Source of the DNA: Zasmidium citrigriseum
Lineage: Eukaryota; Ascomycota; Dothideomycetes; Mycosphaerellales; Mycosphaerellaceae
Reading direction: 5' to 3'
Assembly (NCBI GenBank): GCA_002786025.1
Contig: NHNW01000016.1
Location: 124,001 to 188,000, forward strand
DNA length: 64,000 nt
Shown here: one piece after another, positions 28,345 through 47,450 of the stretch
Layout: the number at the start of each line of letters is the position of its first letter
Position numbering within the stretch: position 1 is the stretch's first letter
Notes under the pieces: model-generated
Seen by the model: the letters and a program-made list of their open reading frames with translations, nothing else
Told to the model about the DNA's origin: nothing
The model's database searches: none
Program-made: the position numbers and the translations under genes

Positions 28345-31300
28345 TCAAAACGTGCGGTTCGGATCAATCCGCCATCTGTAACAGTTGTTCGACACAATCC
28401 CACCGTTTTTATGGTCCTTGCGACCGCAGTTGCAACTATCGGTCGGGACAGAAAGATACTTTCTGCACTCGTTGTAATTCCACGTCCACATACAATTGGA
28501 CTCAATCTCAAAGGATACGGTGATGCGTACTATGCCGATGCCTCCGTTCCAAGGGAAGGTATACTCGCCAGAGTTGAAGTAGCCTTCGGTGAAATTGCCA
28601 TTCTCGATGTCGTTGCAGAAGCTGTTGGCGGCACTACGCATGCGTTCATTTTCGGTCCTCTCGCCTTTGTTGTAGCAATCCACTTCATTCTTCATGGGAT
28701 CGCCCCGCTCCAAGGGTGAGGGCTCCGGTGTGGCGGACGTAATGGATGAAGTGCTGCTGGTGCTTGTGCTGCTGATGATTGGGCACGAGATTTCGTCTTC
28801 GCCGTAATACTCTTCCGGATCGTCACCCGGGTCGGATCCAAGCGAGGTACCATTGTCTCCGAATGACCAGGGCTTATCTACGCAAGCTAAATCCCAGAAG
28901 CCGCAGTCGGGAACCGTGGGTTGATTGACCAGACCGGCGTAAGGCTGAACATCGCGTTTTACCAAGGCCTCGGGTGGCGGGGTGGGGAACGATTCTGATG
29001 GTGCCGATGTGGTAAACTGGCCATCTATGCCCGTGTATACGATAGCAGGCCAGGAAGGAGTTGTTGCGAGTGCGGGAGTGAAGGCATCAAACCCTAACCC
29101 CTGACGCTTGACCTTGTCGCCTGCTTCGGTCAATGTGACAACTTGCAGAATCCATTCAGAGATCGTCAAGGGTGGCTGTGTGACTGTGCTTGTCCATGCC
29201 CCGTTGCTAACAGTCATCAGTGGATAGTCCACCGTGGTGGTGAACTCGGTCCATGGTGGTAGCTTGACATGGCAGGGTGGCACGCAGGTGAATGAAGGCT
29301 GCTCCATCGCCCAAATCGAGGGATCAATCCAGATCAGGTCTCCCAGTCTCGTGCCACTACCACTGACGTCCAGAATCGTGATTTGTGACCAGAATGGATG
29401 TCTGTCAACGTTCAGATTGTCCGCAGCTGAGATGCCTTCGCCGTTCATCACCAGCATGTTCTCAGCCCCGATTGTCACCAGGTTCTGTAGCCGCACACTG
29501 CCGTAGTTGTTGGTCAGGCGTACGAGGGTCTTTTGACATTGCTGAGTATCGACGCAGGCTTGGGAGTAGGTCGAGAACCAGCTGTAGATACCTGCGCTCG
29601 CGATGAAGACATGTTCGGATTCTGTAATGATGACAGCCCAAGACTCATCGCAGCCGTTGAAATCACTGCCGACGGTACATGTGTAATCAGGATCGCCGAT
29701 GAAGGCCCCGAGTGTGGCAGTGAACGGAGCGGGCGGTGGTGGAGTGGGCTGGTAGTATGGCGACTCGGTCTGGATCATGCCGGCGAATATGTTCGAGGCG
29801 CCATGAAAGTTATACTGATAAAACACGGAATGCTCAGACGCCGTAGCGTACAGCCTGAGACCCGTCAGCACCTCTCAAAACAATGAAGTTATCGAAGGCA
29901 TCTGTATTGGCGTTTGAAGACGACCATTTACTGCGTTTGAGACCGTCTGGGATGAGCCCCACGAACAACGACTGAAATTGTCTTACCATGTTGGGTGTGT
30001 ACTTTCGATCAGCAAGCCTCGCGCTACGTAGATCGAACACTGAGCCATATTGTTTGCAGGGTCGTCAAGATCCGGATCACTGGGGTGAAAAGATCAGCAT
30101 TGGTACGGTTCTCCATGAGCGTCACTTACTCAATCATGTGATCTGCAACCCAAAGCCACATGTTCTCGAAGTAGCCAGAAGCGCCAGATGTCACATGCAT
30201 CATCAGACTGGCGGCACTACAGCCCTCATTGATTCCACTCGTCGAGGCAGGACATTCGGCGGGCGTCAATTGTGTTCCTGTTGCACCACCGATACGAACA
30301 TGGCAATCCCAGATTCCCGCAGACCCGGGAGTGCTGGCTTGGATGTTCCACTCGACCAGAATTGCACCAGCTGTGGCGCCAACAGTGGTGAAAATGAGAT
30401 CTTGCATCTCCACGTCGCCAACTGCGCCATTCGTACCGACCTGTAACATCACCTTTGGATCACTGCAAACATCAGATACCCATTTTTGCAAGACTGAAGA
30501 GCGTTGCTCACCTGGCGTTCTCGAAATACGACCCAGAGGCCGCCAATTGTGACCAGGCTTCTCCTACAATCTTGGCGCCGGGAGGCACAACAACCGTCGA
30601 AGTGAGGATGTAGGTCCCAGCATCAACAAACAGAATGCTGCCCAAGCTGGCGTAAAGGGCGGCCTGAAAAGCTGCTGTGTCATCAGTAGATCCATCGCCT
30701 TTCACTCCCATGTCCTTGACATGGACAAATTCATCCACGGCACGATTCTCGTACTGAGGCTTTTCGCGCTCAAAGTACGCTCCATTGGAATCAATGAGCG
30801 TCGAAGACCTTTGGTAGTTGCCCACTGTGCCGCCGTTGGAGAAGCTGCGCTCTGCCGGGGAGCCGGCGTACACGGGGCCCAAGGCCCACTCAGTCACTGT
30901 GCCAGCAGAACCGTCCAAATAGACACTTCCGGTCGTATCTGTAACTGTAGCGGTCACACCGGAAAGTCTCACATTTTCAAGTACCAAACCGGTGCTGCCG
31001 CTGCCGATGTCGGACGAGGCTGGAGCCATGGTGATCGCGGTGTGTACGTTGTCGAAAGAGGAGTCAATGATTGACACAGATCCGATGCTGCCTGAGTCGT
31101 TTTCAGACACAAGCCTGAAGCCAATGTCGACGTTCGTCATGTTGATGCTTTTCCACACCCAACCCCAATCCCAGATCAGGTGAACGCCGATAGAGCAACC
31201 GTTGAAGGTCAGCCGCTGGGCTGTGAACTGTTGAGACCCGCCATAGAAGCCGATGCCTCCAACAAAGGTGACATCGGATAGCTGCCCACCACTGCCATTT

Positions 31301-32883
31301 TCTGCATACATGCCGATCTGCTCACCTTCTGCGATTAGTTCGACGTTCTGCAGACTGGTGGCTTGGGCGACCTGGTAATGCAGGCACGAGATGTTTGGTC
31401 CGGCTTGTGTGATGTCGATAACGATGTTCCGGATTTGACGGTAGAAGTTTGCAGTGTTAATGTACCACTCCTCGGTACCGCCCTGTCCTCCTGTGTATTC
31501 GTCATTGGATAAGACACCGAGACCTACGAAGCTCGCAGAAGCCAAGAGGGTTGGTCTGGTGTTTGCGTCCCCAATGACCTGAGTTCCGTACGGCATGGGA
31601 ATCGTGCTAGATACCAAATAGTCTCCTGGCGGGAAGTAGACTATGGCGTTCTTCGTGGTTGAACCGTTACACTTCTCGCCGCATCGGTTGCCATCGTTCA
31701 TGGCAGCTTTGATGGCGCTCGTGTCGTCCTATATGATCAGCAAGTTGTCCAGGTGAACTGCGCGAGTCCTTACCGTCATGCCATCTCCCACCGCTCCGTA
31801 GTCGAGAACATTACGGAATACAACATAGTTTGGATCGTTTCCCCATGGTACTGTGCCTTTGCGAGCGATGCTCTCCATCCAAAAGGTCCCTTGGCTAGCC
31901 GCCTGGCGTCTGGTGATTTTCCTGGTTGCATTCAGATCCACTACGTATGCTTCAGCAATGAGAGCTGCCGCATTGGCAATCCTGTGAGTGATCTGTAACA
32001 GCGCTGTGACATTCGTTCTGGTTGAGTTCCTGACCTTGCTCGGCCCGTAAGGGTTGCGGAGCGGGTTCGCCAGGCGAGCAGCATTACAGCTGGATGTCTC
32101 TGATCTGGCGGCTTTGACAATGCCCTCTGCCTCATGAACATCCCAGAGTGAAGCTCGTTTGAACAGTGGCGTGATCAATGCATCGGGAAGGCTACGAAGC
32201 TGAGGGTGCGCCTGTCGTTGTACGATGCTCTCCGACTCAACAAACTTTTTGGAGCCTGCAGGATTGTTCGAGCCCTTTTCACTGTCATCTTGGCCCCAGG
32301 GGAAGCGCTTGTCCATGCGTGTCATCTCAGGAGCTTCCAGTCCGGGGAGGTCAGACCAACTCATGGCTGAGTCATTGGCAGGGATTATGTGCTCGCTTCC
32401 ATGGCCCGCATCAATCCATGCACGTATCTCCTCGTAGGTGAAGTCTCGTACTCCACGACGACCTGCAGTTGAGTTACCAGCGGCTATAGCATCCCTCTTT
32501 GCCTGTGATATCTCGATGTCCGAATCAAGATTGGTCGACTGGTTGACTGGGTCGTCATTCAGCGTCCATACACGAGCAGCAATACCGTCGGCAGCGTAAG
32601 TTAGGTTGAGACGGAAAAGGACGACGGACTTCTGCTGGTCGAAGAACAGGAACTCTCTATTTGCGATCCGTCTTTGCGTAATGACCTTTTGGAGCTCTTG
32701 GCGCAGCCGGAGGTGGGCCGCTCCTTGCCCTACGCCTCATAAGTCAACATCTCTCCGCGGTCACCTGAATATACACAGGGGAAATCTCCGACTCACAGTT
32801 CTGCTCCGACTTGAAGCCACGTGTGCAGCTCATACCCGCGCAACGAGTCATGCTCGGAGAGTCCCTGTTCTCGCCACTGCCAC
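28345..32883 (-). pseudogene. 3' part of a split chitinase-type / GH55 exo-beta-1,3-glucanase fusion gene
   Basis: Exons 32883-32797, 32729-31774, 31728-30512, 30462-30130, 30079-29987 and 29854-28345 join in consistent phase with no stop. The first part (TRCAGMSCTRG, then EQNWQGAAHLRLRQEL) matches what follows the NucA/NucB domain in class V chitinase-like proteins. From exon 2 a GH55 catalytic region begins (FRNVLDYGAVGDG, then DDTSAI), and its second pectate-lyase-like half has KDMGVKGDGSTDDTAAF. GH55 enzymes cleave beta-1,3-glucan. The C-terminal 130 residues are Cys-rich (SVPTDSCNCG, NNCYRWRIDP), again as in class V chitinase tails. The upstream half of the gene lies at 44698 and above, across the 11.8-kb insertion. 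Translation from an internal ATG is conceivable but would lack a signal peptide. Confidence 0.85.
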
Positions 32884-32892
32884 CCTCAATCC
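32884..32892. repeat. Left 9-bp target-site duplication of the 11.8-kb element
   Basis: CCTCAATCC, repeated at 44698-44706. Removing one copy plus everything between restores the minus-strand reading ...TWIEGGSG... without a frameshift, which identifies both insertion edges to the base. Confidence 0.93.
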
Positions 32893-32993
32893 TATCTCCA
32901 ACTTCAGACCCGCGCACGGATCAACGCCAAGAAGCTAAACAGCCAGCCAATCACAACACACCACCCCCCTTGATCCGCGCAGCGGGTCTGAAG
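32893..32993. repeat. Left terminus: inverted repeat plus hairpin
   Basis: The terminal bases are followed by two arms, 32902-32924 and 32970-32993. They pair perfectly over 12 bp (CTTCAGACCCGC) and again over 8 bp (CGGATCAA) with a small internal bulge and a 45-nt loop. The right end has the same layout. Confidence 0.85.
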
Positions 32994-33149
32994 CCAAAAC
33001 GTCAGCTTCAGTCAAAACGCTCCTCGCAAAACACGATTTCTACAACCACCGGTCGCATCGACGCGCCAACATTTCGAGGCCGTAGAGTAGCCAATTGCGA
33101 ATTCAACGGTGTAAAAATCGTGTTGGTGCGACGACTATACGACCAACGC

Positions 33150-33581
33150 TAGCCTCCTTCGGAAGCCTACTTACGGCTAGCTATAGGCTAGCAAACACAC
33201 CTATTCACCAACCTTCTGGAATTACCCGCGCGACGCGTGGCGGGAGGTGACTAGACGCGTCCGAACACATTGCCGCAAAGCGTAGGTTCTTATTCCCTTT
33301 CCTTCGCCCTATATAAAGCTAGAGGGCAAACTAGCGGCGATAGCAAGGTACTCCAATTACCTTAAAAGGCATCTAGACACACTTTCTAACCTAATTTAGT
33401 ATCCCTTGTCAAGTTTAAGGCATAGTCGTTACCCAAATTTGTAGTCCAGAAGGTCGGACATCCGAAGGCTCGAGCTAGCTATACTAAAACTACTAAATCG
33501 ATACTAAACCAACCCTAAACTACTACTAATACACCCGAGTCTATCTAGTAGCTACTAGTAATTATAGTATAAGACGCGGAC
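33150..33581. other. Left subterminal region and putative promoter of the DUF6589 gene
   Basis: RIP begins here. An inverted repeat GCTAGCCT / AGGCTAGC lies at 33148-33155 and 33185-33192. A TATA-like CTATATAAAG near 33309-33318 lies about 270 bp before the inferred start of the DUF6589 coding region. Confidence 0.45.
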
Positions 33582-36500
33582 ATACCTAACTAGTCCGCGC
33601 TACTAGATAATCCCCTCGGAGCGGCGGCTACTAATCTAGAGCCTAGATCCGAGCTCGAGCTATTTAGTAACATATTAGATAGCTTCCTTGCGGTATTAGG
33701 AGAGGAGACCTAGTAGCAGCGGGGTTAGCAGTCTAAAGAAGAGGAGTCCGACGATAAGGATAAGGGTGCCGATAATTAGGGTGCCTAAGATTAAGGTGCC
33801 TAAGATTAAGGTGCCAAGGAGCTATTACTACGTTAACGTAACCGTCTCCGGCGTAAGGTAGCCGAGTCAGTGTCGTATTAAGAACAAGAAGAGACTGACG
33901 AGGACGATTTCGAGAGCGAGTCCAACAGTAGCCTAGATAGTAGTAACGACGATAGCGACTAAGACGAAGAAGAAGATACCGAGGACTATAAGACTAAAGA
34001 TAACGACGACGACGACGACGACGACGACGATACTATAACTGCTACTCCGACTCCTCGCAAGACTCCTCGTAAGCGGCTACGTAAGACTAATCGCAAGTCT
34101 CTAAAGTTAAGGCCTTAGAAGTATATCGATATTCGCTAGCTTATAAGAGATAAGGACATTACCCCGCTAGACTTTATCGAGATATAGGTTGGCGAGCTAG
34201 GTACACGTATATACTGCAACCGTGTAAAGAAGTTAGTAGATACTATACTACGAGAACAGCTCGTAAGTATACGAACACTCTGGTCTAAGTTAAAGGCCCT
34301 CGTACGCCTATAGAAGCCCTTCTTCTAGAAGTATAATCTAGAGCAGGCTATCGAGAAGAAGAGCTTATCTAAGATAGACGAGATTATCCAAGAGACCGCT
34401 CTAGAGTAGTACCGCCTTCTTTAATACTTGCTACCGTATTATAAGGTAACCGCCGAGGACGCTAAGATAGGTATCGCCGAAGACAAGCACAAGAGGATCC
34501 AGAAGCGCATCGCTACGATAACTTAGATTGTAGTGCGGTCTATCGCCTTGAAGAAGTCGTCTTAGTAGTCCAAGTCCCTCGGTCTCTAGCTATATACGTC
34601 TAGTGTAAAGCGGAGGGTTATCGATATCTTTAGTAGTATAGGTCTCTACAGCTTATACCGCACCCTATAGAGACTAGCTAGGAAGATAGCTTAGGCTAAC
34701 CGCTAGCGCATCGCAGATATTGCAAAGTCAAGCCACTAATAGACCTTAACTTATAACAACTTCTATATATCTAAGAATCGCAAGGGAGTTTAGGAGATTA
34801 GCGGCGGCACTAAGTAGTAGAACATAACAACCTCCTATATCGCTATCTACGATTCCATTCCTAAAGGTGGGCTTACTAAGGATATACTTAACCTAAGGAA
34901 GTATCTGTCGCCGAGGGACGTTATCAAATCTATCTTAGGTAACAGGTTCCGGAAGAAGACGACCTTGTACTATATAGAGTAGGCCGTTAACGTGCTATTC
35001 GGTAAGGAGCTTAAGCAAGTGTTTAAGCAGGCCAAGTTTAACTTCAAGAAGACTAATTATCTACACTTCGAGATATTCTAGGATAGCAATACGAAGGAGC
35101 GCTTTGTCTAGCTAGAAATTAAGATTAAACCCTTAAAGAAGACTAAGATTATCTCGCTGCTAGTCTTAATACACGACGAATCTTCGATTGCTAGTACGTA
35201 CGAGGTCTATAACGATATCCTCTAGAACTTCCTTAAGCTAGATCTAGACGACGACGCCTTCTAGGATAAACTACGTATCTTTATCGGTAACTAGATAATA
35301 GTTAACCGTAACCGAAGCGTTAAGGCGGAGAGTATTAAAAGCAAGAAGGCGTATAACCGCAAGGAGTTTATCGTTCCCTACCTAGCGCTCTTCTATATCG
35401 AAGTTAACCTTTGTAGGATAGTTATAAAGACGCACTATAGCACTAACAGTAACGGAGAGTTGCTTACCTATTCTTTAAAGGAAGACGCTCGCTACTTCGG
35501 TATCTAGGGGTTGTCGAAAGATAAGCTAAAGCACTACCTACTTCGCAACCTCCTAAACCGGACATATCGCTCTCGCATAGGTACCCTCTTTATATAAGAG
35601 CTCGTCGACATAAGTAAGCTCGACTTTACGGCTACCGCTCGCGATGCCCGGGCTAACGACGGTAACGGTAACGGCGGCTCTAGCAAGTTCGATATCGTTA
35701 AGGCCGCGATCGCAAAGCTAAAGCCATTCGACTACTTTACTATTATAGAGAACATCTACTAGAAGGTGTTTACTTAGGAAGCGTAGCGTAGTAAGTAGGC
35801 TACCGCTAGTCTATCGAGCTAGGCCAGTCCATCGAGTTAGGCCGGCTAAGAGATAGAGGATCTAGCCTTTACTACTATAGCCCGAATAATAAAGGAGATC
35901 GAGAATACTATAACTATCTACACGGCTACGCGGAAGATAGATACTAGCTAGGTTAGCCGTATAATCGATTACTTAATTCCAGCCTTCTTTAGTACTAACA
36001 TACTAAACTACAGCCGTGAGATACTGCATCTAAAGTACCTGCTTGCTACTTCGAAGAAGCTACTCCGAGAGGCGATCCTAAACAGCTCGATCGTTAATCT
36101 AACTAGTAAGAAGGGTAGGGGACTAGCGGCCGATAAGCTTAACGAGCTGTACAACCTAGATTATGCCCTCGATATTAAGGCTCGTAGTAACTTAACTTAT
36201 AATCTCGCAGCTACGATAGAGCTTATCTCTTAGAATCGTAAGTTAGCCCGTGTAATAAGGGACATGTTTAAGGCTATAGGACTAGTAGAGACTAACTATC
36301 ACACCGAGAAGAAGGTGGTGAGCAACGTCTTCGTATACGCTAAGAAGTTACAGAGCGAGGGACTCGTTAAGCGGCAGAACCGTGCTATCGGTTAGAGCTA
36401 GGACTAGGGCTAGAACGGCCTGTTAGACGACATCTAGTCTCTCGGAGCCGCAGAACTCGTCGACGCTATTAATAAGCTAAATGTCTCTAACTAGCGCCTA

Positions 36501-36782
36501 GTTAGCCGTGTTACTACTAGTAGCAACGACGCTATTATCGAGAATCCACTAGATAGCGACGCTATCGAGCGCATTTCTGGCACCGATCGTAGTAGCACTA
36601 CTACGGGTATTGTCGATAACGACTCTGCTAGCGTTTACCTACTATACATCGATGCAGATAGCTACGAGTATATCGAGTTAACAATAATAGATCTGATAGA
36701 AGACGGTAGCGGTAGTGGAATCGGAGCCGGCTTAGTAAGCGGACTGGGCGGAGCAGGGGATATACCGTCGAGTAAGTTTTAG
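33582..36782 (+). pseudogene. DUF6589-like protein, RIP-inactivated
   Basis: One frame of 1,067 codons runs from ATA (probably a mutated ATG) to TAG at 36780-36782 with no frameshift. Internal stops are TAG/TAA, as CAG/CAA/TGG would become under RIP. The N-terminal 200 residues are acidic (repeated GAxD units near 33768-33820 and a poly-Asp run near 34003-34035) and followed by a basic patch. The central part has LIHDES, FIGN followed by VNRNRSVKAE and HYSTNSNGE. The C-terminal part has NLTSKKGRGLAADKLNE. This succession (GDQLT-like, then NxxGkxG...DxxxExxN) is what I know as DUF6589, a domain of unknown function common in repeat-associated fungal genes. Whether it is a transposase is unproven. 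Confidence 0.75.
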
Positions 36783-36788
36783 GCTATG

Positions 36789-36905
36789 GTTTTTGGTCTG
36801 GATAATAGATTGAGCCGGGCACCTATAGATGAATAGTCTAGACTAGCATGGTTTTTAGTCTTGGTTACTTAATTAAGACTAAAAACTCAGATCGAGACCA
36901 AAAAC
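36789..36905. repeat. Nested palindrome downstream of the DUF6589 gene
   Basis: Inner arms GTTTTTAGTCTT (36851-36862) and AAGACTAAAAAC (36875-36886) are perfect with a 12-nt loop. Outer arms GTTTTTGGTCT (from about 36789) and AGACCAAAAAC (to about 36905) flank them. The motif recurs behind the helicase gene at 40364-40431, so it marks the 3' sides of both convergent genes. It could be a terminator/3'-processing hairpin or a protein-binding site. Confidence 0.75.
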
Positions 36906-36999
36906 TTAGAGTGAAGCTAGGCGGTAGTATAAGGTGAGGCGGACAATAAGAGCGTCGATAATAGTAGGCTAGTATTTAAATGAGTTGATTTCATGTTCT

Positions 37000-37956
37000 G
37001 TCTCTCTCTTCCTTTCTCTCTTTAGTAACGACATAACTATTATCCTCCTCATTATCCTCGTAGTCGTTGCCGTCGTCGCCCTTATTCGTAGATCGCTTAC
37101 TCGCGCTAGTCGCAGCAGTACTAATATCACTATTATATCCGCCGCCGAAGAAGTAGATACGTAGGCGGACGACATGCTCGCCGCGGCCGAGGAGGCTATT
37201 AACGAGTAAGTCTATAGGTTGTCGATAAACTCTAGAGTCGCTAACTGTCGTGCAGACTATCGCCGTAAGAAGAGTAGTAGTAGTAGTAGCTAGAGGGGCT
37301 ATTTGCTCGAGTTCGTACCGGTCTAAGTACCAGATATCTATCTAGGTACTGCTTAAAGGTCTCGCTATCTAGAGTCAATCAATTACTAACATTTAAGTAG
37401 AGAGCTATCGTAAGAACCCGCTGCCGCCGCCGCCTTAGCACTAATACGTCGACCTAGTGCTCTCGCCTAGCTACGCGCCCGTCGTGCTCGCCGCTAGTAA
37501 TCTACTACCTCTACTCCGACGTCTACTGCCGATATCTACGAGGTACCAGAGAGTAGCGAAGAAGACGAGGTATCTGTGCCTTAACTAGCACTACCTCTAG
37601 CCCCGGCTCCGGCTCTAGTACTAGTAGCACTACGTAACGTCGGTAGTCGGCCGCGTAGCACTCGTGCCTAGTACTACCGGCCGAGCGTCTAAGGCTAGTA
37701 CTATAAAGTGCTAAGCTAGGCCGAGTTCGATACTCTTGAGGAGCTATAGAAGCGCCTCTATTCGTACGTTAGAAGGATTAAGGAGGTGCCTAGGGTGTCT
37801 GTTATGCGGGCTAGGCTATACCGTCGCTACTATAGTAGGCTAGGAGTTTAGTACAAGGAGTATACTACGGCCGCTACGCTGTAGTATAATAGCAAGAAGG
37901 GGGTTAGCAAGTATGCTCGCTACTAGTACGCTCGTTCAAAGTGTAAGGTAAGATAG
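37000..37956 (+). pseudogene. Unrecognised coding region inside the element, RIP-inactivated
   Basis: Open stretches with RIP-type stops lie between the DUF6589 gene and the repeat-rich DNA. Near 37165-37370 one frame gives an acidic then basic sequence with a Ser run (AGT repeats at about 37274-37290). From about 37540 to the stop at 37954-37956 another stretch gives VLS-AEFDTLEEL-KRL followed by a Lys/Arg/Tyr-rich tail. A polypyrimidine run ending CTTTAG at 37022 could be a splice acceptor. Exon structure is unclear. No domain recognised; a small DNA-binding accessory protein is possible but speculative. Confidence 0.45.
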
Positions 37957-38399
37957 ACGAAGAATCGATTGCCCTACTTACTCTAGTCTTCTAGTCCAGT
38001 CTAGTCTTCCAGTCTTCTAGTCTTCTAGTCCAATCTAGTCTACTAGTTCCTATCGTTAACGCTACCTCCGGTATTACATCCTCTCCTTCTTCAAGCCCTT
38101 CCTAGCTCTTCTAGCGCCGCCTCTTGCCCGCCTTAAACGGCTAAGTCCAAACTCCGCAAACTCCGACTATTGTCGCTATTTACTCTAATATTGTACCTAT
38201 TGAATACCTTACCTTACCTCGCTGCCAGCGCTAACGTTATATCGTAATACTGCCTACGCGCGAGGTTAAAACTTCGTCGCTCGCGCTCTTCCTTCTTCTT
38301 CCTTTCATCCACCTCCGTACCTCCACGATCTACTATAAGCACGTAATAGCGCATCGCACGTAAGCCGGTATAGTAGTAACTAACAGGCTTGCGAAGAGA

Positions 38400-38690
38400 T
38401 CCGTCTAGCTCTTAACGACGTTAAACTAAGTGCCGTCCTACCTATCGACGTTAAACCGAGCGGTTAAGCTTACGACAAAACTAAGCGGCAGGCTAGCTAC
38501 TGTCTACTATATTAAACAACCGAGTACCCTCGTCCTGCTCTATAACTCTAAACTAGGCGGTACACTAGCCTATCTCGTCTAGCCATAACGGTAAACTAGC
38601 ACCTTAGCCTATCTCGTCGAGCTACGCGACGTAAAACTAGGCCGCCTACTAGAGCGACATCTAGACCGTCGGGCTACGCGACGTTAAACG
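38400..38690. repeat. Degenerate short repeats around CGACGTTAAAC
   Basis: The motif CGACGTTAAAC and variants (GACGTAAAAC, CGTTAAACGAGG) recurs several times within about 300 bp, together with repeated CTATCTCGTC(G/T)AG. Period is irregular. It lies in the non-coding middle of the element. Confidence 0.5.
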
Positions 38691-38692
38691 AG

Positions 38693-38912
38693 GCCGCCGG
38701 CTACGGCGTGATATATCCTCTTTACTGTCTATTCGGAATCGATAAGATTCTAGTAGGCTATAGGCGCGCTAACTGCGATAGTATTACTATCCTTCTTACT
38801 TAGTTAGCCGCCGGCTACGGCGTAATATGTCCTCTTGCCTAGTACTAGAATCGATAAGATTCTAGTAGATTGGCGAGCGCCGCCAACTACGATAGTGTTA
38901 CTATCCTTCTTA
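38693..38912. repeat. Tandem duplication, 114-bp period
   Basis: Two copies, each running from GCCGCCGGCTACGGCGT to ACTATCCTTCTTA, with GAATCGATAAGATTCTAGTAG in the middle (itself containing the palindrome GAATC-GAT-AAGATTC). The copies start at 38693 and 38807 and differ by RIP-type and other changes. Confidence 0.75.
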
Positions 38913-40363
38913 TTAGGTTTATATTAGGCCTATCAAGTTATTAATAGGGTGCTAGTAAGCGAGCCTGCGAGTCGCCTTCGGGTTACCTACCTTCGGCCGC
39001 ATTAGTACTACTTACGATCTTACTAGCCTTTATAGGTATTAGCTTTCGTAGGTGTTAGCTCGGCGGCCTCGACGGTAATACGTTCAAGCTGCCCTACCTC
39101 CACCTTGTCCTTAAAGCGTACTCTTAGTAGGCTCTTGGGCTTTATCTTTCTAACGGTCTCAATCTCGGCTACAAAAGAGGCGTTATATATTAGTCGTTAT
39201 CTAACACCGTCGGTTCTAGAGTTCTAACTCTTAGGCTTGTCCCTTAAGATATCTAAGGCTCGTAAGATTAGACTCTTAAGACTTCGGTCTTAAGCTACTT
39301 CTAGTTATTAATAACCGGCGCCGTATATCCCTTAGCCCTTTTATACCTCTATATTACTATATAGCTCGAAGGTCCCCTATAGGGTGTCGGTCTACTTACG
39401 GAATTAACAGTCTTGGTGGTAGCGGTTGGCACTTTACTTGCTTGCAAGAATATTATTAAACGTCTCCTTCTATAGCGTACTAATAATCTATACTGCCCGT
39501 CTCGGTCTCTAGCTTCGGTTACTAACTCGTCGGGCGAAGGGCGGTTTCGACTAGCTTCAGCTAGTTTTAACGACCTACCTAGTAGAGAAGAGGGTCTTGT
39601 ACTAAACTTGGGATCCCTATATCCCTCGTCTATATATAAAGCCTCCGTTCCGCCTATCTACTCACTTTAGTAGCACTTCGGTGTTACCTAGTAATAATAG
39701 GTGGTAGTGCTATACATGTTTCTCTAGGCTAGCCTAGGGCGATAAGTGCACTATTTGGCGATAGATAGATAAGATAGAGGTGTAGTCGACGGCTTCGTAC
39801 AGTCGACGGCTTCGTATAGGCAGGCGGGCAGGTTCGGAGGATTCGGCGGTGCTAGACGCGAACGAGGGTAGCAATAGACGCGTAGAGGTATTTGACGATG
39901 GATTGAAGGGCGTTAACGATAGATATAGGCGTTGGCGATAGATTCGGTGGTGTGTTAATAGGTTGAAGTTAGGACTTAGCGGGATCGTAGCTGAAGCTAC
40001 CTACGAAATTTACGGGTAGCTAGGCCTCGGCTCCTATCGCTTCCCAACTTTAACCTATCTTGCCTATTAACATTATCGCCCATGCCATTAATATCATCGA
40101 GAGCGAAGGAACAACGAGATATACGAACGAATCGAATACTATACTCTATATATAGAACTCTACTGTCCTCTTACCCGCCTACTACTATATCTATAACACG
40201 GAATACGACCCAAGATCCCGTACAATAGCACCGAATCCACGAAGTACATACGCTCGTCGCAGTATGCTTGCGCATAGAAACAGGAGGGATTATAAGAGTA
40301 TTAGAGGTATAGAGGTGTATAAGTCGAAGGATAGTAGCGTAGATATTTTAGTCGACTAGCTAG
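38913..40363. other. Non-coding interior of the element
   Basis: No convincing coding. A TATA-like CTATATATAAAG lies near 39631-39642 and could be a promoter. The stretch 39700-40030 has short direct repeats (GTCGACGGCTTCGTA twice near 39786-39817; GGCGATAGAT variants). Less RIP-mutated than the flanking coding regions. Confidence 0.4.
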
Positions 40364-40431
40364 GTTTTTAGTCTTGATGAGCGATAATTAAGACCAAAAA
40401 CCCCCAGCTAGGAATCACTAAGACCAAAAAC
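40364..40431. repeat. Palindromic motif downstream of the helicase gene
   Basis: GTTTTTAGTCTT (40364-40375) faces AAGACCAAAAAC (40390-40401) and a second AAGACCAAAAAC (40420-40431), directly before the helicase stop at 40436-40438. Same motif as at 36789-36905. Confidence 0.75.
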
Positions 40432-40435
40432 CTCC

Positions 40436-43400
40436 TTAGTGTCTCGGACTGCCTCTCGGACTGCCTCTCGGACTGCCTCTCGGACTGCCTCTCGGACTGC
40501 CTTCTACCCTACTAGCCTCCTACTTACGAAGCTTTATAGATAACTTCGACGGACGACGTGGACGACTAGTTAGACTGCCTTGGCCACTGTCAGGCGTAGC
40601 AGGGCTTGTACGGAGACTATTACCGGCCTGTAGATAGCGAGGGCTAGCTTAAGGATGGTCTGCCTTCTTGCCCTTATCTCTCTTCTTCTAGGCTAGCCGA
40701 GCTAAGGGACTACTAGCATCTAGACGCTCCTTAAGCAATAGATCATCGTCATCGTTATCGTCGAGATCGATATTAGACAATCTAGCTTCAATAGTAGCCC
40801 GGTTCTTACGCTCCTTACGAGACGGCGTACGACTGCGACCGCTCGGCGTACGCTAAGGAGACTCAATCTCTTGGTTCAGATTGCGGCGAGCGGCTCTTAG
40901 GTACGCTTAAGCCTCCTCGTTAGTAACTAGAGTCTAATCTAGATCGTCGGTAGCACTACTACGCCGGCTAGTTAGAGTCTAACCTAGCTTAGTAAGACGC
41001 AATCGACTACTAGCTCGACCTACTAATTCCACTTCGTCTATTCTGCTTGCTCCACGCTTGTCACTAGCTCTGCCTAGACGGTCGTCGGTTATGCTTACGC
41101 CTACTTAAGAAGACGATACGCCTACGCCTAGCTAAAGCTTTCGACGAAGACCGAGGGCAGCCTTCGTAGACTTCTCGTTACTAGTATTAGCTTTGGATCG
41201 GCGCTCTTCTAGTGTCTAGCTAGTAGGCCGCTCCTTACTCGACGTAGTAGTAGGCTCCTCCTCCGTTCTACCAGCCTCCTTAGCTGCACTCTTGTCCTTC
41301 TTACGCTTCCTCTATACTACTAATAGCTCCTAGCGTACCCTAAATACCTCTAGTACAATACGGTTCATCTTAGCTATTAACCCGTCGAGTGGAATCTCCT
41401 GTCTTCGGTTGCCCCCGTTAAGCCAACGCATAAACTTAGCGGCCTTCTCGTTTATACGCTCGCGGTCGACGGTGCTAAACTTCTTAATAGTGTTTACGTA
41501 GTAGGGATTGAAGATATCGCGGAGGAGCTGCTATAGGATACGATTAGGTACTAGAACGTTAGATGGCAAGTTAAACAGCCGGTTACTATACGGATCCGTA
41601 AACACTTAGTTGGCCCGACGAGTAACCTATACCTAGATATCTAGTAAGGCGAGTACTAGTATTGTTCTAGCGATTGGCTTTGTCGGCTTCTTCTTACGAG
41701 CGGGTAGCTTTTGCTAAAACAGTAGCTTAAGCAGCTCTAGATTGCATATGCTGTAGCACTTAGGTCCGCCTAGTACGATATTATCTAGCTCGTATATACG
41801 CTCCTGCTCGCAGAGGTATTTATTAATAATATCACGCTAGTAGCGACGCTTCTTTAGATTAGCGCTGTACCGGGTATTCTAAGTAGCTCGCTAAATGTCT
41901 AGAATACTATCGCGGGCCTTTATTTCCTTCGCATTCTAGTCCCTCTTGGAAGTATTGTTTGTAATAGCGTCCTTAATAGCCTGGGCAGTATTACTATCGG
42001 CTAGAGCTAGGGCCGTATCTATAAGATCCGGAACGAAGTCGAGGGGATTATCCTCAATAGTATCGAAGATAGAATTATCGATACTACTAAAAAGAACATT
42101 ATCCTTATCGATATCCTCGTCGTTGACACTAGTAATCTAGCGTAGGTTGCTACGACGGGCGGGGACGTACTCTTAACGGCTGTACGTTAGCTCTCCGGCT
42201 TCGACCACCTCTATATCCCTCGGGATAAGTAACTTGTAAGGAGAGCCTACTAGTAGGCGCCTCTAGCTGTCGTCGATATAGTACGGGATATAGAAGACTA
42301 CTAACGCCTAGATACCCTTTAAACGAGTAGTACGGCTAGCCTTCTAAAGACTATCGTCGATATCCTTAGTAATAGGCTAGTTCTAATAGATAAGTCGTTT
42401 AATATCGGGGAAGTTAGCGCCGGTTACGGTCGCTAGTAATGCCTATAGGATACGTATCTTCGAATCGAGCCTCTTGAACTTATAGTATCGCAGATCCTTA
42501 TCATGATTAGTAATATAGCTAGTATAGAAGGATACGATTTCGTCGACATTATAGCCGCTACCACCTGGACTACGAGTGTACTTCTTAGTTACATCCTTAA
42601 CACCCTCTATAAGCTAGACGAGCTAGTCGCGAAACTGCTTTATACCGACATTAATACCTAAGCGGGTGTTATTGAAGATTACCGTCTTGTTAATACGATC
42701 GGGCGTTACGAAGCTAGTGTCTAGATTAATAGCTTGTTCCAGCAGCTAGTACAACATGTCGAAGTTACTAAGGTAGCTATTAGGGATAGTCTGTAGGATA
42801 TATGTAGTATTAGGCCTATCGATACTAGCACGGATTACCTGCGTCTTGAATAGCTTATCGCCCTACTTACGGAAGCTAGTATTCTTTAATAGGAACTCCT
42901 CGGTTTCCTTCGAGATAGTAGCCGAGCAACTAAGGAAGACAGTGTTAATCGATATTATCGAACGGGCTAGGTGGATCTGCGAGAACTCTTTCCGGAACTC
43001 GCGCTACTTAAGGACGAGATACACCTTATCTATCGCGAAGAGGCCGATCCGAGGAGCGACGGTACGGAGCACCGCCTGGAACTCTAGCAACACAAGCTAC
43101 TCTAGACTACAGATAATATAATAGTATTTGCTAGCCTTAATGTCGTCGTACATCTTTAGATCCTTCTTCTTAGTCTCGGCGGTAATAAGACATACTCGAA
43201 TTAGGTCCTATTTATTATCCTCGAGCTAGCGGACTACTTCTTCGATATCGCCCCTCTACTCGTTACTAATACGAGTAAGTAGTATAACCTGGACAGTTAT
43301 CTTGCCCGTTAGAAGAGTTAGGGTATAGAATAGTAGGCTCTTACTAGCACCTGTCGCTACCGCTACTAGAACGTCTCGCTAGCCGAAGATAAGGGCGTAG

Positions 43401-43861
43401 ACGACGTCGATTTATAGCTAAGATAGCTCGAGGTCCTTCTATAGATAGAATAGCTTTAGGACCTTGCGAAGTCTAGCACGTATAATATCGCCTATAACTA
43501 GAAACGCCTCTTTAGATTCGCTAGCATCGGATACAAGGAGCTGAACCTCCTCGAGCTAGTATCCTATAATATATAAACACCGCTGCTCGAAATACTAGCG
43601 CTAGACCTCTACACTGTTATTAACGTCTAGTAATAGTAGCTGCCGCTTAATATCCTACTACGGATTGTTACGATTAATAGCGGCGCGGCCTAGCAGTCGA
43701 GGCGGGTTGGGGTTATCGGCCTAGCGCTAAGTAGCTTACGCTCTCTAGTCTCTATCTACCGCCCTCTTACCCCCGGCCTAACTAGCGATAAATATAGAGC
43801 TCTATAGTACCGAGCTCTTCTTCTTCGCACCCCTCTTGCCCTTCTTCTTTCTCGGCGGCAT
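40436..43861 (-). pseudogene. RecQ-like DEAD/DEAH helicase, RIP-inactivated
   Basis: One minus-strand frame of 1,142 codons from ATG (43861) to TAA (40436) stays in register throughout; interruptions are RIP-type TAG/TAA. The N-terminus is basic (PPRKKKGKRGAKKKS). Helicase motif I reads ATGASKSLLF (a Gly codon changed to Ser), near 43330-43375. Motif II reads IDKVYLV where DEVH is expected. Motif III is LSCSAT. The second RecA lobe has KTVIFNNTRLG. The C-terminal third is Ser/Arg/Lys-rich and ends in five GSPR repeats (40442-40501). The layout resembles RecQ-family helicases, including telomere-linked helicases of fungi, and the helicase found in some mobile DNA. It probably serves element replication or mobilisation, which is inference. 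Confidence 0.82.
40442..40501 (-). repeat. 12-bp tandem repeat encoding (GSPR)5
   Basis: CTCGGACTGCCT repeated five times on the plus strand; on the minus strand it encodes GSPR units at the very C-terminus of the helicase. The repeats are nearly perfect despite RIP elsewhere, which suggests recent expansion. Confidence 0.88.
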
Positions 43862-44395
43862 GATGTCGTCGGTCGCTAGGTGTTAGAAAGGAGTCGGTGT
43901 TAGTATCGGAAGAGGAAGGGGTTTAGTAATAGAATAGTCTCGGATCTAGATAACCTCGCACGCCTAACGCTTATTCTAGATAACAAGATAGCTTTTAGCG
44001 ATATAACAAGATAGAGGAAAGATTCTAAGCTGTATGGGCGTTTGGTCGCCGTCGCCGGCGGGCGGGTAGCGGAGCGGAAGGCGACTAATTTACTAGGGCC
44101 AACCTACACCTCCGTACGTTACAAAACCGACTGGACAGCGTTAGCAAGTGAATTAGAGAAGATTAGCTTCTTTGGTTTTATGCGGATTAGTCTGGAAACG
44201 AGTGGAAATAGTTAGATACTCGAAAAAGGTGGACAGTTTTTGATAGCTACTTAAGGACGGAGACTTTAACGTATAGTTTCTACGATACTTAGAGGTGTTT
44301 AGGCATGTTACTGCGACTACCCGTATATGCTTTGTTTGACAGGCGGGTGTTGTTGTCGTCGTCTGCAGGTACCTATTCGATCAAAAACCACGAAG
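43862..44395. other. Upstream region of the helicase gene
   Basis: Moderately RIP-mutated, no coding recognised. Likely the helicase promoter. CpA/TpG return progressively toward 44395. Confidence 0.4.
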
Positions 44396-44697
44396 CCCAA
44401 AATGACTTTAAGGGTTTTTTGAATTTAGCTCATTTCACGTTGAATTGACATCCTTGAAAATCTGTGCAATGGATTCATCGTCCAAAAATCTACAACAGTG
44501 TTTTGCACTTTTTCGTATATCAGGTTTGGCGGTGGCAGAATCGCAGTTTTGGTGGACGCGTTTGATGGACGCGAAGCGGAAAGCGACTGGATCGGGCGTT
44601 TTGTCCTCAGGCGCTTCGCAAGAGCTCGCTTTCCACCCATACTAAACCTAATCCGGAAACAGCCTCACCTCACCCCGAAGCGCCTGAATGGAGGTAG
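44396..44697. repeat. Right terminus: unmutated end with hairpin and inverted repeat
   Basis: Normal base composition. TCAGGCGCTTCG (44608-44619) pairs perfectly with CGAAGCGCCTGA (44676-44687), a 12-bp stem with a 56-nt loop, ending 10 bp from the element border. The terminal bases, read inward, are CTACCTCCATTCAGGCGC. Confidence 0.85.
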
Positions 44698-44706
44698 CCT
44701 CAATCC
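44698..44706. repeat. Right 9-bp target-site duplication
   Basis: CCTCAATCC, identical to 32884-32892. On the minus strand it encodes the WIEG junction of the interrupted chitinase-type gene. Confidence 0.93.
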
Positions 44707-45455
44707 ATGTGGCAGGGGGAAATTCATCACAAGTGTATCGTACTCCTGAGTTCTGGATCGGGAGACCAGACCGGCGGAGATTGACGACCTGGTTGATGTC
44801 CGTTCCCGGCTCAAGAGCGTTGGAAAACCATTGGCCGTCCTGACGCATGATAGGTCCTTGATCGGGCTCCGGGCATGGATGTGAATTCTTCCAGTTGCTG
44901 GGACAAGATTGTCCACGTCGGGCGTCTCGGCGGCTTTGAGTCGAACCAGCGAGGGCTCTATTGTTGAAGTCGAACCCAAAGCGATCGTTGTCAATACCCC
45001 CTAGAGGATGGAGGTTTTGTCCCCTTGGTGACTGTGCAAAATTCAAAGCGTTTTTGCAAATATCTCTCATGTAGAAGCAGTTGTAGATTAGGATTACCTC
45101 TTGGTCGCGGCCAAGGTCGACCACCTGGATGGGTACATCCGCTATCGTTGGCTGGCTAGGACATAGTTAGCAGAGTCGCAAATTTTTGTCTATCGTTTGC
45201 AGAATTTCGTGAGATCAATCAAGTCCACACTCTATCCAGCATGACGGTGGTGCCCTTGAATACTGTACGACTTACTAGAAGTACTCAGTTACGCCCCCAA
45301 TGGTTTGCGAAATGTAATCCTGTTGATACTGAGCGGCGACATGTGGTGATTTGGCCAAGAGGGCCATCAAAGGTGGATGAAGTCTCATATCCGTAGACGT
45401 AGACGAGATGGAAAGCTCGTCAGAGGGCACAAGACCAAAGGTGGTGGTGGGAAAA
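44698..45455 (-). pseudogene. 5' part of the split gene: NucA/NucB domain of a class V chitinase-like protein
   Basis: Minus-strand exon 45155-44698 follows a 120-nt intron (45156-45275; CTGCTAACTATGTCCTAG acceptor) and an upstream exon ending at 45276 with AAQYQQDYISQTIGGVTEYF. The exon encodes VVDLGRDQEV, DICKNALNF, PLGGIDNDRFGFDFN, SRRDARR and RYTCDEFPPATWIEG. These form a deoxyribonuclease NucA/NucB-type domain as found C-terminal in subgroup-C class V chitinases. The text breaks off at the target duplication and resumes at 32883. The expected GH18 catalytic domain is not found upstream, so the gene was also truncated at its 5' end. It borders a LysM gene head-to-head, as intact members of this family often do. 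Confidence 0.82.
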
Positions 45456-46228
45456 AAGACTTGTCAGTGATCCCACGGTCATCCATCTCTATAGCCCCTA
45501 TGTGAGGACGTGGGTTCGGACATGTCTGGTCCAATCTCCTCTTGTGTACGGTCCTTGCCTCATTTTCATCCCCATTAGTCTATTCTACATCGATCTTCAG
45601 CCACTCCTGCATCTGCTTCTGCATAGTCTCTTGCAATGAGGATCAATGCATGAAGGCTTGCATGCCTGGATGCATGTTGGTTCGAGATTGCCTTACATGT
45701 CGAAACTTCGATAGAGGAGTGAGGCTGATCGAGAGTCACACGTTGGAGAGATTGAACAGTCATACAACGCCATGAGGCTTCGATCTTCTTGTCGAAGCCT
45801 GTGCGGTAGCTCAGCTGCACGTTGTACTGCAGCCCCGGACAATTTAAATAAGTCACAGAACTCATGTGCAGATTTGATGTTACATCGGCCTTAAAATAGT
45901 TTGTTTCATCTGCATTTCATTCGAACAGTGCGTCCAGTGCATCTTGGTGTCACGACGCACGAGTAGTATGGCTGCCTTCTCAACCAAACCGGTGCGACAG
46001 AGGCTGAATGTAGTCGGCTTTCTTGATGCACCGACTTCTATTTGTTGCCAAGATAGGGGTTGCTCACCCAATGGAAGCTTGAGTGCATGGAAAGGACCTG
46101 TGGGCTCTTGAACAGTATAAGCTTCTCCAATCTACGATCTGGGAGAGGCATTAGGATCAACCGAGCGACCATACCGAATATTGAATCCCTTCATCAGCAT
46201 GCTGGAGAAGTTTTCTACGTCTTCCGTT
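45456..46228. other. Intergenic region, chitinase remnant / LysM gene
   Basis: Holds no trace of the missing GH18 domain that I can recognise. Ends in the promoter of the LysM gene. The direct repeats near 45641-45675 (ATGCATG, GCATGCCTGGATGCATG) are short and probably chance. Confidence 0.45.
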
Positions 46229-47450
46229 ATGATTCGAATCCTGCTACTCTTTGTTTCTGCCGTTGCGGCAGCAGACGAATGTGCTGCTTCGACTTGGGCC
46301 GCAGGCAGCATATCTCGCAGGCAATCGATTACCAACGATTCTCTTTCTCAACCCGCTACTCCGCAAAGTCTTTTGAACACGACCAACTCGACCAACTCGA
46401 CCAACTTGACCAGTCTTTATCCAGGTCAAATCAACTGCCGCTACTACTCAAAGACTCCCAGCAGCGTGAATTATTACACGTGCTCCAGCCTCGCAATCAG
46501 ATACAACATACCAGTTGAGCTGTTCCTGCAGTTGAATCCAACAATCGATGCCAACTGTGGGAATATCAAATCAAACATGCGTTACTGTGTAGCTGGATGT
46601 AAGTGAAGTTGCTCCAACTATACTCCCGTCTGACAAGCGACAGTCATTGAGCCCAAACGTGCCGTCAACGGTTCTTGTGGCTACAAGCATGACAACGCCA
46701 CCTGTCTCGGCACTCAATTTCAATGTTGCAATGCCAAAACCTGGACTTGTGGAGATACGGAGTGAGTCGACACGCCCGAACAGCCGCCGCGTTACTGACA
46801 CATCTCAGGGCTGACTGCGCACCTGGTACCTGCTATGACGGAGCCTGCGCTGGTGATAGAATTTATAGCACTGACGGTACTTGCGGAGCTGGTCATGGCG
46901 ATAGACTCTGTGCTGGAACATGGGGCGATTGCTGTAGCGTCAACGGACGATGTGGAACAGGGGAATCGTTCTGCGGCACTGATGTCTGTCAGTCCGGGAA
47001 TTGCACGAGACCAGTAACTATTCCAAGCAATCCTCCATGGATGAATGGCAATACCACCGACGGAACATGCGGAGATGAGAACCGGTACTCCTGCAGCGTA
47101 GTCTTTGGATCCTGCTGCAACAAGTACAACGTTTGTGGTTCCCTTGCATCGGACTGTGGAGACGGATGGTGAGTCCATAGTCTTTTTGAACGCTAGCAAG
47201 TTCATACTGATCCTTCGTCAGTCAACCACTATGGGGAAACTGTAACTCAATCAGCACGAGCTCTGCTTCAAGCAACGCGCCCACGAAGACATCTACCCTC
47301 CCTGCGTACAGCAATACCAGCGCTCCAACAGCTACTGGCTACAAAGGCAGTGCAACTTCCATCAGCACTGCTGCCATGTATACCGACTCTGGCAGCAAGA
47401 TTTGGCCTTACGCCGTGGAGATCACACTCCCCGGCTATGGAGAAGATTGA
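46229..47450 (+). CDS. Secreted LysM + CBM18 chitin-binding protein
   Basis: Exons 46229-46598, 46644-46761, 46809-47168 and 47222-47450 (introns 45-53 nt, phases consistent) encode 358 residues. The start at 46229 is chosen over upstream in-frame ATGs because it begins a clean signal peptide (IRILLLFVSAVAAA). A Ser/Thr/Asn-rich spacer with NSTN repeats leads to a LysM-like domain (CRYYSKTPSS, YYTCSSLAIRYNIP, FLQLNP). Two CBM18 modules follow (CGAGHGDRLC, GDCCSVNGRCG; SCSVVFGSCCNKYNVCG) with paired Cys, then a Ser/Thr-rich tail. LysM and CBM18 bind chitin. Such proteins shield fungal walls or sequester chitin fragments from host immunity, or assist chitinases. Its position next to the chitinase remnant fits the LysM/subgroup-C chitinase gene pairs of other fungi. 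Confidence 0.9.

Follow-up and report, generated by a model that had tools for sequence, protein, structure and literature searches.

An inactivated two-gene element in Zasmidium citrigriseum

The stretch of DNA analyzed here (the window) comprises 64,000 nucleotides of the genome of the ascomycete Zasmidium citrigriseum (GenBank assembly GCA_002786025.1, contig NHNW01000016.1, positions 124,001 to 188,000 of the forward strand). It holds an 11,806-bp element at window positions 32892..44697, to which as a whole we assign no strand and which carries two broken, convergent genes: a gene with a DUF6589 domain on the plus strand (domain at approximately 35121..36284) and a RecQ-like helicase gene on the minus strand (40390..43870), with a noncoding module of 3.65 kb (36787..40439) in the center.

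Element ends and target-site duplication

The element begins with CTATCTCCAACTTCAG on the left and, read inward, with CTACCTCCATTCAG on the right; these ends form imperfect inverted repeats, the repeat starting with CTAYCTCC. The left terminal motif, CTATCTCCAACTTCAGACCCGCGC, lies at 32892..32915 on the plus strand and the right one, CTACCTCCATTCAGGCGCTTCGG in inward reading, at 44675..44697 on the minus strand. In generalized form and with up to two mismatches, the left motif had 34 matches in the genome versus 2 for a reversed control; with up to three mismatches, the right motif had 11 versus 0. Immediately outside the ends lie two identical copies of the target-site duplication, CCTCAATC, at 32884..32891 and 44698..44705.

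Searches with both ends, run on the same 44.4-Mb genome (C-numbers below are its contigs), found both ends of the window family at seven loci, the window copy included. The others are C57:550527-562360 (plus strand), C57:562836-592402 (minus strand, 29.6 kb), C78:67634-79912 (plus strand), C60:49147-77122 (minus strand, 28.0 kb), C75:302349-320942 (minus strand, 18.6 kb), and C62:274799-274966 (no strand given), the last being an internally deleted derivative of 168 bp that has kept both ends and an 8-bp duplication. Given their lengths, the C57 minus-strand, C60, and C75 copies must contain extra sequence. A related short element of 103 bp at C94:152254 (again without a strand) has the same kind of ends and also an 8-bp duplication, so that short, nonautonomous derivatives with element-type ends are present alongside the long copies.

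Counted over the seven loci of the window family plus the C94 element, an 8-bp duplication was found in all eight copies with both ends read; seven are exact, and the C78 copy matches at 7 of 8 bases, with one G/A transition. A 9-bp match holds in four of the eight (the window copy, the C57 minus-strand copy, C62, and C94) and fails in C57:550527, C78, C60, and C75, where no C follows the right duplication. Since the 9-bp reading fails in half of the copies, we assign the extra C to the element, as the first base of its inverted repeat, and rejected a 9-bp duplication, the ninth matching base being a chance C. A preliminary description of this locus, made from the sequence alone, was thus right about precise borders with a direct duplication and about the imperfect inverted repeat but gave the duplication as 9 bp instead of 8 and the start as 32893 instead of 32892. 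It had staked its proposal on other copies sharing the same ends and borders; because such copies, with coinciding borders, exist in the genome, it survives the tests that it had set for its own refutation.

Several candidate loci were not counted as copies: end matches on C65 and C134, the right flank of which is identical to that of the C60 copy; C111:154640, a partial left-end match without the terminal motif; and three of four further terminus loci (L071, L072, and L074), at which no second duplication was found within about 200 bases. At C60:49147, C65:16215, and C134:112746, the right end and its flank are identical and the helicase stretches score identically, which suggests duplicated or redundantly assembled stretches. 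The two C57 copies form a tail-to-tail pair with 475 bases between their right ends.

The ends were also put to a predictive test outside the window family. From the left flank of an element of another family (C1:812877), the right end GGAGGTAG followed by GGGAGGGG was predicted, and the resulting 16-mer had one exact match in the genome, at C1:793846-793861, on the expected strand of the same contig and 19 kb away; of the sequence between these predicted ends, part was read. As ten further sites match with one mismatch and the reversed control has 21 matches at up to one mismatch (the pattern is G rich), rarity by itself would not provide the support, which comes from the exact match lying on the contig and strand where it was expected.

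The DUF6589 gene

For searching, the plus-strand frame was read from 34041 to 36797, and the span given above is that of the domain, not of the gene. It matched PF20231 with an E value of 3.2e-32 (1.9e-33 for the cut-out domain) and a score of 112.2 bits, against a curated cutoff of 27; this was the sole family found at an E value of ≤0.001 when the three plus-strand frames of 32893-40000 were scanned, and it was matched by 13 of 13 aligned copies. Across the genome, 47 DUF6589 matches were obtained from 48 candidates scored, among which three pairs with identical scores and sizes may be assembly duplicates. All 47 contain internal stops; the window match has 12 TAG and 2 TAA stops, i.e., 14 in 387 codons. 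Throughout the 47 matches the stops are TAG and TAA, never TGA, as would be expected if repeat-induced point mutation (RIP) had converted CpA and TpG almost fully.

In an alignment of 13 of the 47 matches (two rows being near-identical), an acidic residue or the RIP product of one (D-to-N, E-to-K) occupies columns 19 (12 of 12 rows with a letter), 57 (13/13; within GD-stop-LT), and 342 (13/13). Since other columns are conserved equally (e.g., column 274, D in 13/13), reading these three as a D-D-D/E triad is only a proposal. In a protein collection, scoring of the 7,998 and 7,995 best-word candidates gave no relatives outside this genome; phages gave none either, and 54 pattern matches in viral contigs yielded none that was confirmed; a literature search on DUF6589 (PF20231, IPR046496) returned no relevant paper.

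The RecQ-like helicase gene

On the opposite strand, identification of the helicase is based on phmmer matches, the frames of sister copies, and a profile match; 40390..43870 is the span of the frame rather than the limits of the gene. Pfam gave no match in the three minus-strand frames over 37000-44697, and two of these frames had no match among solved structures. The third had ten such matches by phmmer (at about 43474-42791; best E value, 9.7e-4), nine labeled helicase Q5 and one labeled ATP-dependent DNA helicase (1oyw), which we take to be Escherichia coli RecQ. Related helicase frames are present in sister copies, and a profile built from seven such frames matched 1oyw alone at E values up to 0.01 (E value, 5e-5). 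Helicase_C was matched by three of the seven profile rows (best E value, 0.0034), the row of the window itself remaining below the cutoff. The motifs ATG-SKS, DEVY, and SAT in the alignment are presumably of SF2 type. The window frame is interrupted by 47 TAG, 8 TAA, and 1 TGA stops. Together, these searches bear out the two convergent genes that had been named from the sequence alone, DUF6589-like on the plus strand and RecQ-like on the minus strand.

RIP damage and codon constraint

The element carries a RIP-like signature: TpA/ApT is 1.98 within it and 1.15 in the remainder of the window, the corresponding values of (CpA+TpG)/(ApC+GpT) being 0.44 and 0.92. Both genes have been broken by RIP-like mutation, and neither frame is open, a state that the preliminary description had not mentioned. 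Because RIP makes transitions, constraint was assessed by counting transversions by codon position, in alignments that were protein guided for the genes and DNA guided for the center and with most comparisons including the window copy. The DUF6589 gene showed a third-position excess of transversions in five of five comparisons (P values of 1.5e-8 to 2.3e-5), as did the helicase gene (5/5; 4.7e-16 to 0.031, the weakest being window versus C78b), which argues that both genes were maintained in coding form during the lifetime of the elements and that the helicase was probably no accidental capture.

Pairing of the two genes across the genome

A search with the helicase frame, in which 40 of 71 candidates were scored, found at least 43 stretches, which were merged into 32 loci, a number that is likewise a lower bound. 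A helicase locus lies within 25 kb downstream of 21 of the 47 DUF6589 matches, in convergent orientation in all 21 (those on C13 and C28 may represent a single pair), versus a chance expectation of 0.25 convergent pairs within 15 kb. Nineteen of these pairs are at most 10 kb apart, the two longer gaps being those of the enlarged C57 and C60 copies. The terminal motif is found 2.05 to 2.91 kb upstream, on the same strand, of 14 of the 47 DUF6589 matches, among them those on C1 and at C78:13457, the genes of which are 0.64 to 0.79 alike to those of the window in purine/pyrimidine agreement.

It might be argued that the helicase is a captured passenger, or that it serves as a defense against host repair or silencing, outside transposition; a role against host defense is conceivable. 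Repeated subtelomeric RecQ helicase genes that lie outside transposons are indeed known from fungi (PMC4522978), and at 26 of the 47 DUF6589 matches no helicase match was found in range. A captured gene would, however, be expected to vary in its placement, whereas here one orientation recurs in 21 of 21 pairs and the helicase shows codon constraint in every comparison, so that we consider a role outside transposition unlikely. The subtelomeric genes are also repeated and RecQ like; the helicase studied here lies within an inverted-repeat unit flanked by target-site duplications.

A conserved noncoding module in the center

The central module (36787..40439; no strand assigned), which the preliminary description had overlooked, contains clusters of the motif GTTTTTRGTCT at about 36789-36905 and 40364-40431. 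Within the module lies a conserved core (39150..39750, likewise without strand), in which purine/pyrimidine agreement in 50-base bins is 0.83 to 0.99 across 19 aligned rows. These rows are the window plus 18 of 28 loci that were compared; the remaining loci were shorter or more diverged or had no match. Compared in 300-base bins with C57:550527 and C78:67634, the window copy agrees at 0.87 to 1.00 in the genes and ends but at 0.65 to 0.88 over about 36.8 to 40.6 kb, except in the core of the C57 copy (0.92 to 0.95). Against C1 and C78b, the genes agree at 0.64 to 0.79 and the module at 0.74 to 1.00, mostly at ≥0.88. (The right half of the C75 copy, misaligned owing to its extra sequence, was left out.) The module is thus more alike between element families than the genes are. 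GTTTTTRGTCT occurs 7 times in the window copy, near the module borders only, and 5, 6, 2, and 6 times in the C75, C1, C78b, and C60 elements, respectively; it had no match in the two C57 copies, the C78:67634 copy, or the rest of the window.

Such conservation raises the possibility that DUF6589 is itself a passenger and that the ends were moved by an unseen enzyme, e.g., the product of a third gene in the center or of a gene at another site in the genome. A third gene is not supported: Pfam gave no match in five of the six frames of the center and a match below the cutoff in the sixth (E value, 0.43), no frame is open or looks coding, and transversion phases are flat in four of four comparisons (P values of 0.15 to 0.74). 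In each of its six frames, the core averages 8.5 to 13.1 stops per 100 codons, versus 14 in 387 codons for the DUF6589 match of the window, and the length of many of its gaps is not divisible by three. As the distance between DUF6589 and the terminal motif, furthermore, is nearly constant across the 14 matches mentioned above, we regard a passenger role for it as very improbable. Rfam and tRNA searches of the window returned nothing.

We read the module as a noncoding cassette that recombination has exchanged between families; that it acts in cis is a guess. The center was also considered as a nested transposon, but there is no clean empty site, sister copies holding a diverged version at that place, and exchange by recombination is therefore the better fit. 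We also rejected the idea of a discrete repeat of 1.6 kb at 38135-39747, as the similarity fades in the alignment with no clean stop.

Interpretation and relation to known transposons

In our view, the element is quite probably a dead autonomous DNA transposon, with DUF6589 as its putative DDE-type transposase and the helicase as a likely helper. The DUF6589 protein would recognize the CTAYCTCC ends, cut the element out, and insert it at an 8-bp staggered cut, in what we infer to be cut-and-paste rather than replicative movement; the convergent helicase would serve transposition, e.g., by opening the ends or by aiding repair. Derivatives shortened by internal deletion but still bearing their ends would have been moved in trans, and RIP would later have destroyed the long copies. 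The preliminary description had likewise cast DUF6589 as the mobilizing protein and the helicase as its partner, and shared ends, pairing in one orientation, and codon constraint support these roles, with catalysis being attributed to DUF6589 by inference.

Several observations weigh against this interpretation. No intact copy was seen in the genome. A DUF6589 profile had no match among solved structures at E values up to 1, and a single-sequence structure model of the window protein had a mean predicted local distance difference test score (pLDDT) of 36, leaving the fold unreadable. The codon tests share sequences and are not independent. As to pairing, the 26 DUF6589 matches with no helicase match in range among the scored candidates include C1:808900, and the search behind this number covered 40 of 71 candidates; at C72:936010, the helicase match lies on the other side and on the same strand; and 11 of the 32 helicase loci are unpaired, two of which (C65 and C134) are repeats of the C60 copy and a third of which (C75:303194) is a further piece of the helicase of the C75 copy.

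The element shares with DDE cut-and-paste transposons terminal inverted repeats, a duplication of fixed length, and short derivatives with the same ends. Duplications of 8 bp are also made by hAT, P, and Zisupton transposons, from which the element differs in that its sole significant Pfam match in the plus-strand frames is DUF6589. Helitrons, by contrast, are described as having neither terminal inverted repeats nor target-site duplications (PMC4522978), whereas the window element has both.

No named class combining a transposase with such a helicase had come to mind in the preliminary description, which was mistaken in this respect, as AcademH and KolobokH are named helicase-carrying lineages (PMC10799480, PMC10045372, PMC9587614). 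KolobokH is a fungal DNA transposon lineage with a RecQ helicase, within a TTAA-specific superfamily (PMC9587614). The element resembles it in encoding a RecQ helicase but differs in its duplications, which are 8 bp long and vary in sequence, none of the nine seen or inferred here being TTAA, and in gene arrangement: in KolobokH the helicase is encoded downstream of the transposase domain, whereas here it is a convergent gene. A precedent for genes on opposite strands is a Kolobok of a red alga, the RecQ gene of which lies on the complementary strand (PMC9587614).

AcademH, a helicase-encoding lineage of Academ (Kojima 2020; the paper is also cited in PMC9970103 and PMC12210899), is the other named lineage. 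It is described from fungi and animals, being present in low copy number in three fungal phyla (PMC10799480), and has the same content, a DNA transposon that encodes both a transposase and a helicase; a helicase gene beside the transposase candidate is what we found, in 21 convergent pairs. The window element could be an ordinary AcademH element, in which case DUF6589 would be another name for the Academ DDD/E transposase and the 8 bp would reflect lineage variation or a different reading of the ends. Set against this is the reported AcademH duplication of 9 or 10 bp (PMC10045372), versus 8 bp in all eight copies here (9 bp in four of the eight), a difference that, like the likeness, is one of descriptions compared. 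We judge the chances of this assignment to be evenly balanced and note that it is a narrower form of the transposon interpretation given above, not its opposite. Because the element appears to work like AcademH but departs from its reported duplication length, we do not file it as a proven member; on our best reading, DUF6589 acts as the transposase of cut-and-paste transposons that carry a helicase and are either AcademH itself or its relatives. That DUF6589 founds a superfamily distinct from Academ, marked by 8-bp duplications, CTAYCTCC ends, a standing convergent RecQ helicase, and a noncoding, cis-acting cassette in the center that is bordered by clusters of short repeats and swapped between families, seems to us a rather doubtful proposition.

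DUF6589 is a curated family without assigned function, which is here tied to precisely defined transposon ends, to duplications of constant length, and to a helicase that recurs as its partner; these ties make the statement that it is a transposase directly testable. The finding is relevant to two further questions: why helicases are carried by some lineages of transposons, and whether the length of the duplication goes with the accessory enzyme, a link that PMC10045372 suggests for Academ.

The interrupted host gene and its neighbors

With the flanks joined, a minus-strand frame of 202 amino acids is open across the junction, the longest frame crossing the insertion point; its halves lie at approximately 32745..32891 and 44706..45124, and removal of the insert thus restores a host reading frame, as had been claimed at the outset. 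The region 44651-45124, which covers the larger half, has a below-cutoff match to a NucA/NucB DNase (E value, 0.061). The neighboring host frames in 30508-32364 and 46181-47172 match LysM (E value, 1.9e-4) and, just below the cutoff, a chitin recognition domain (E value, 2.8e-5), as well as a pectate-lyase-like/rhamnogalacturonase domain, with an E value of 1.1e-67 at 30508-31701.

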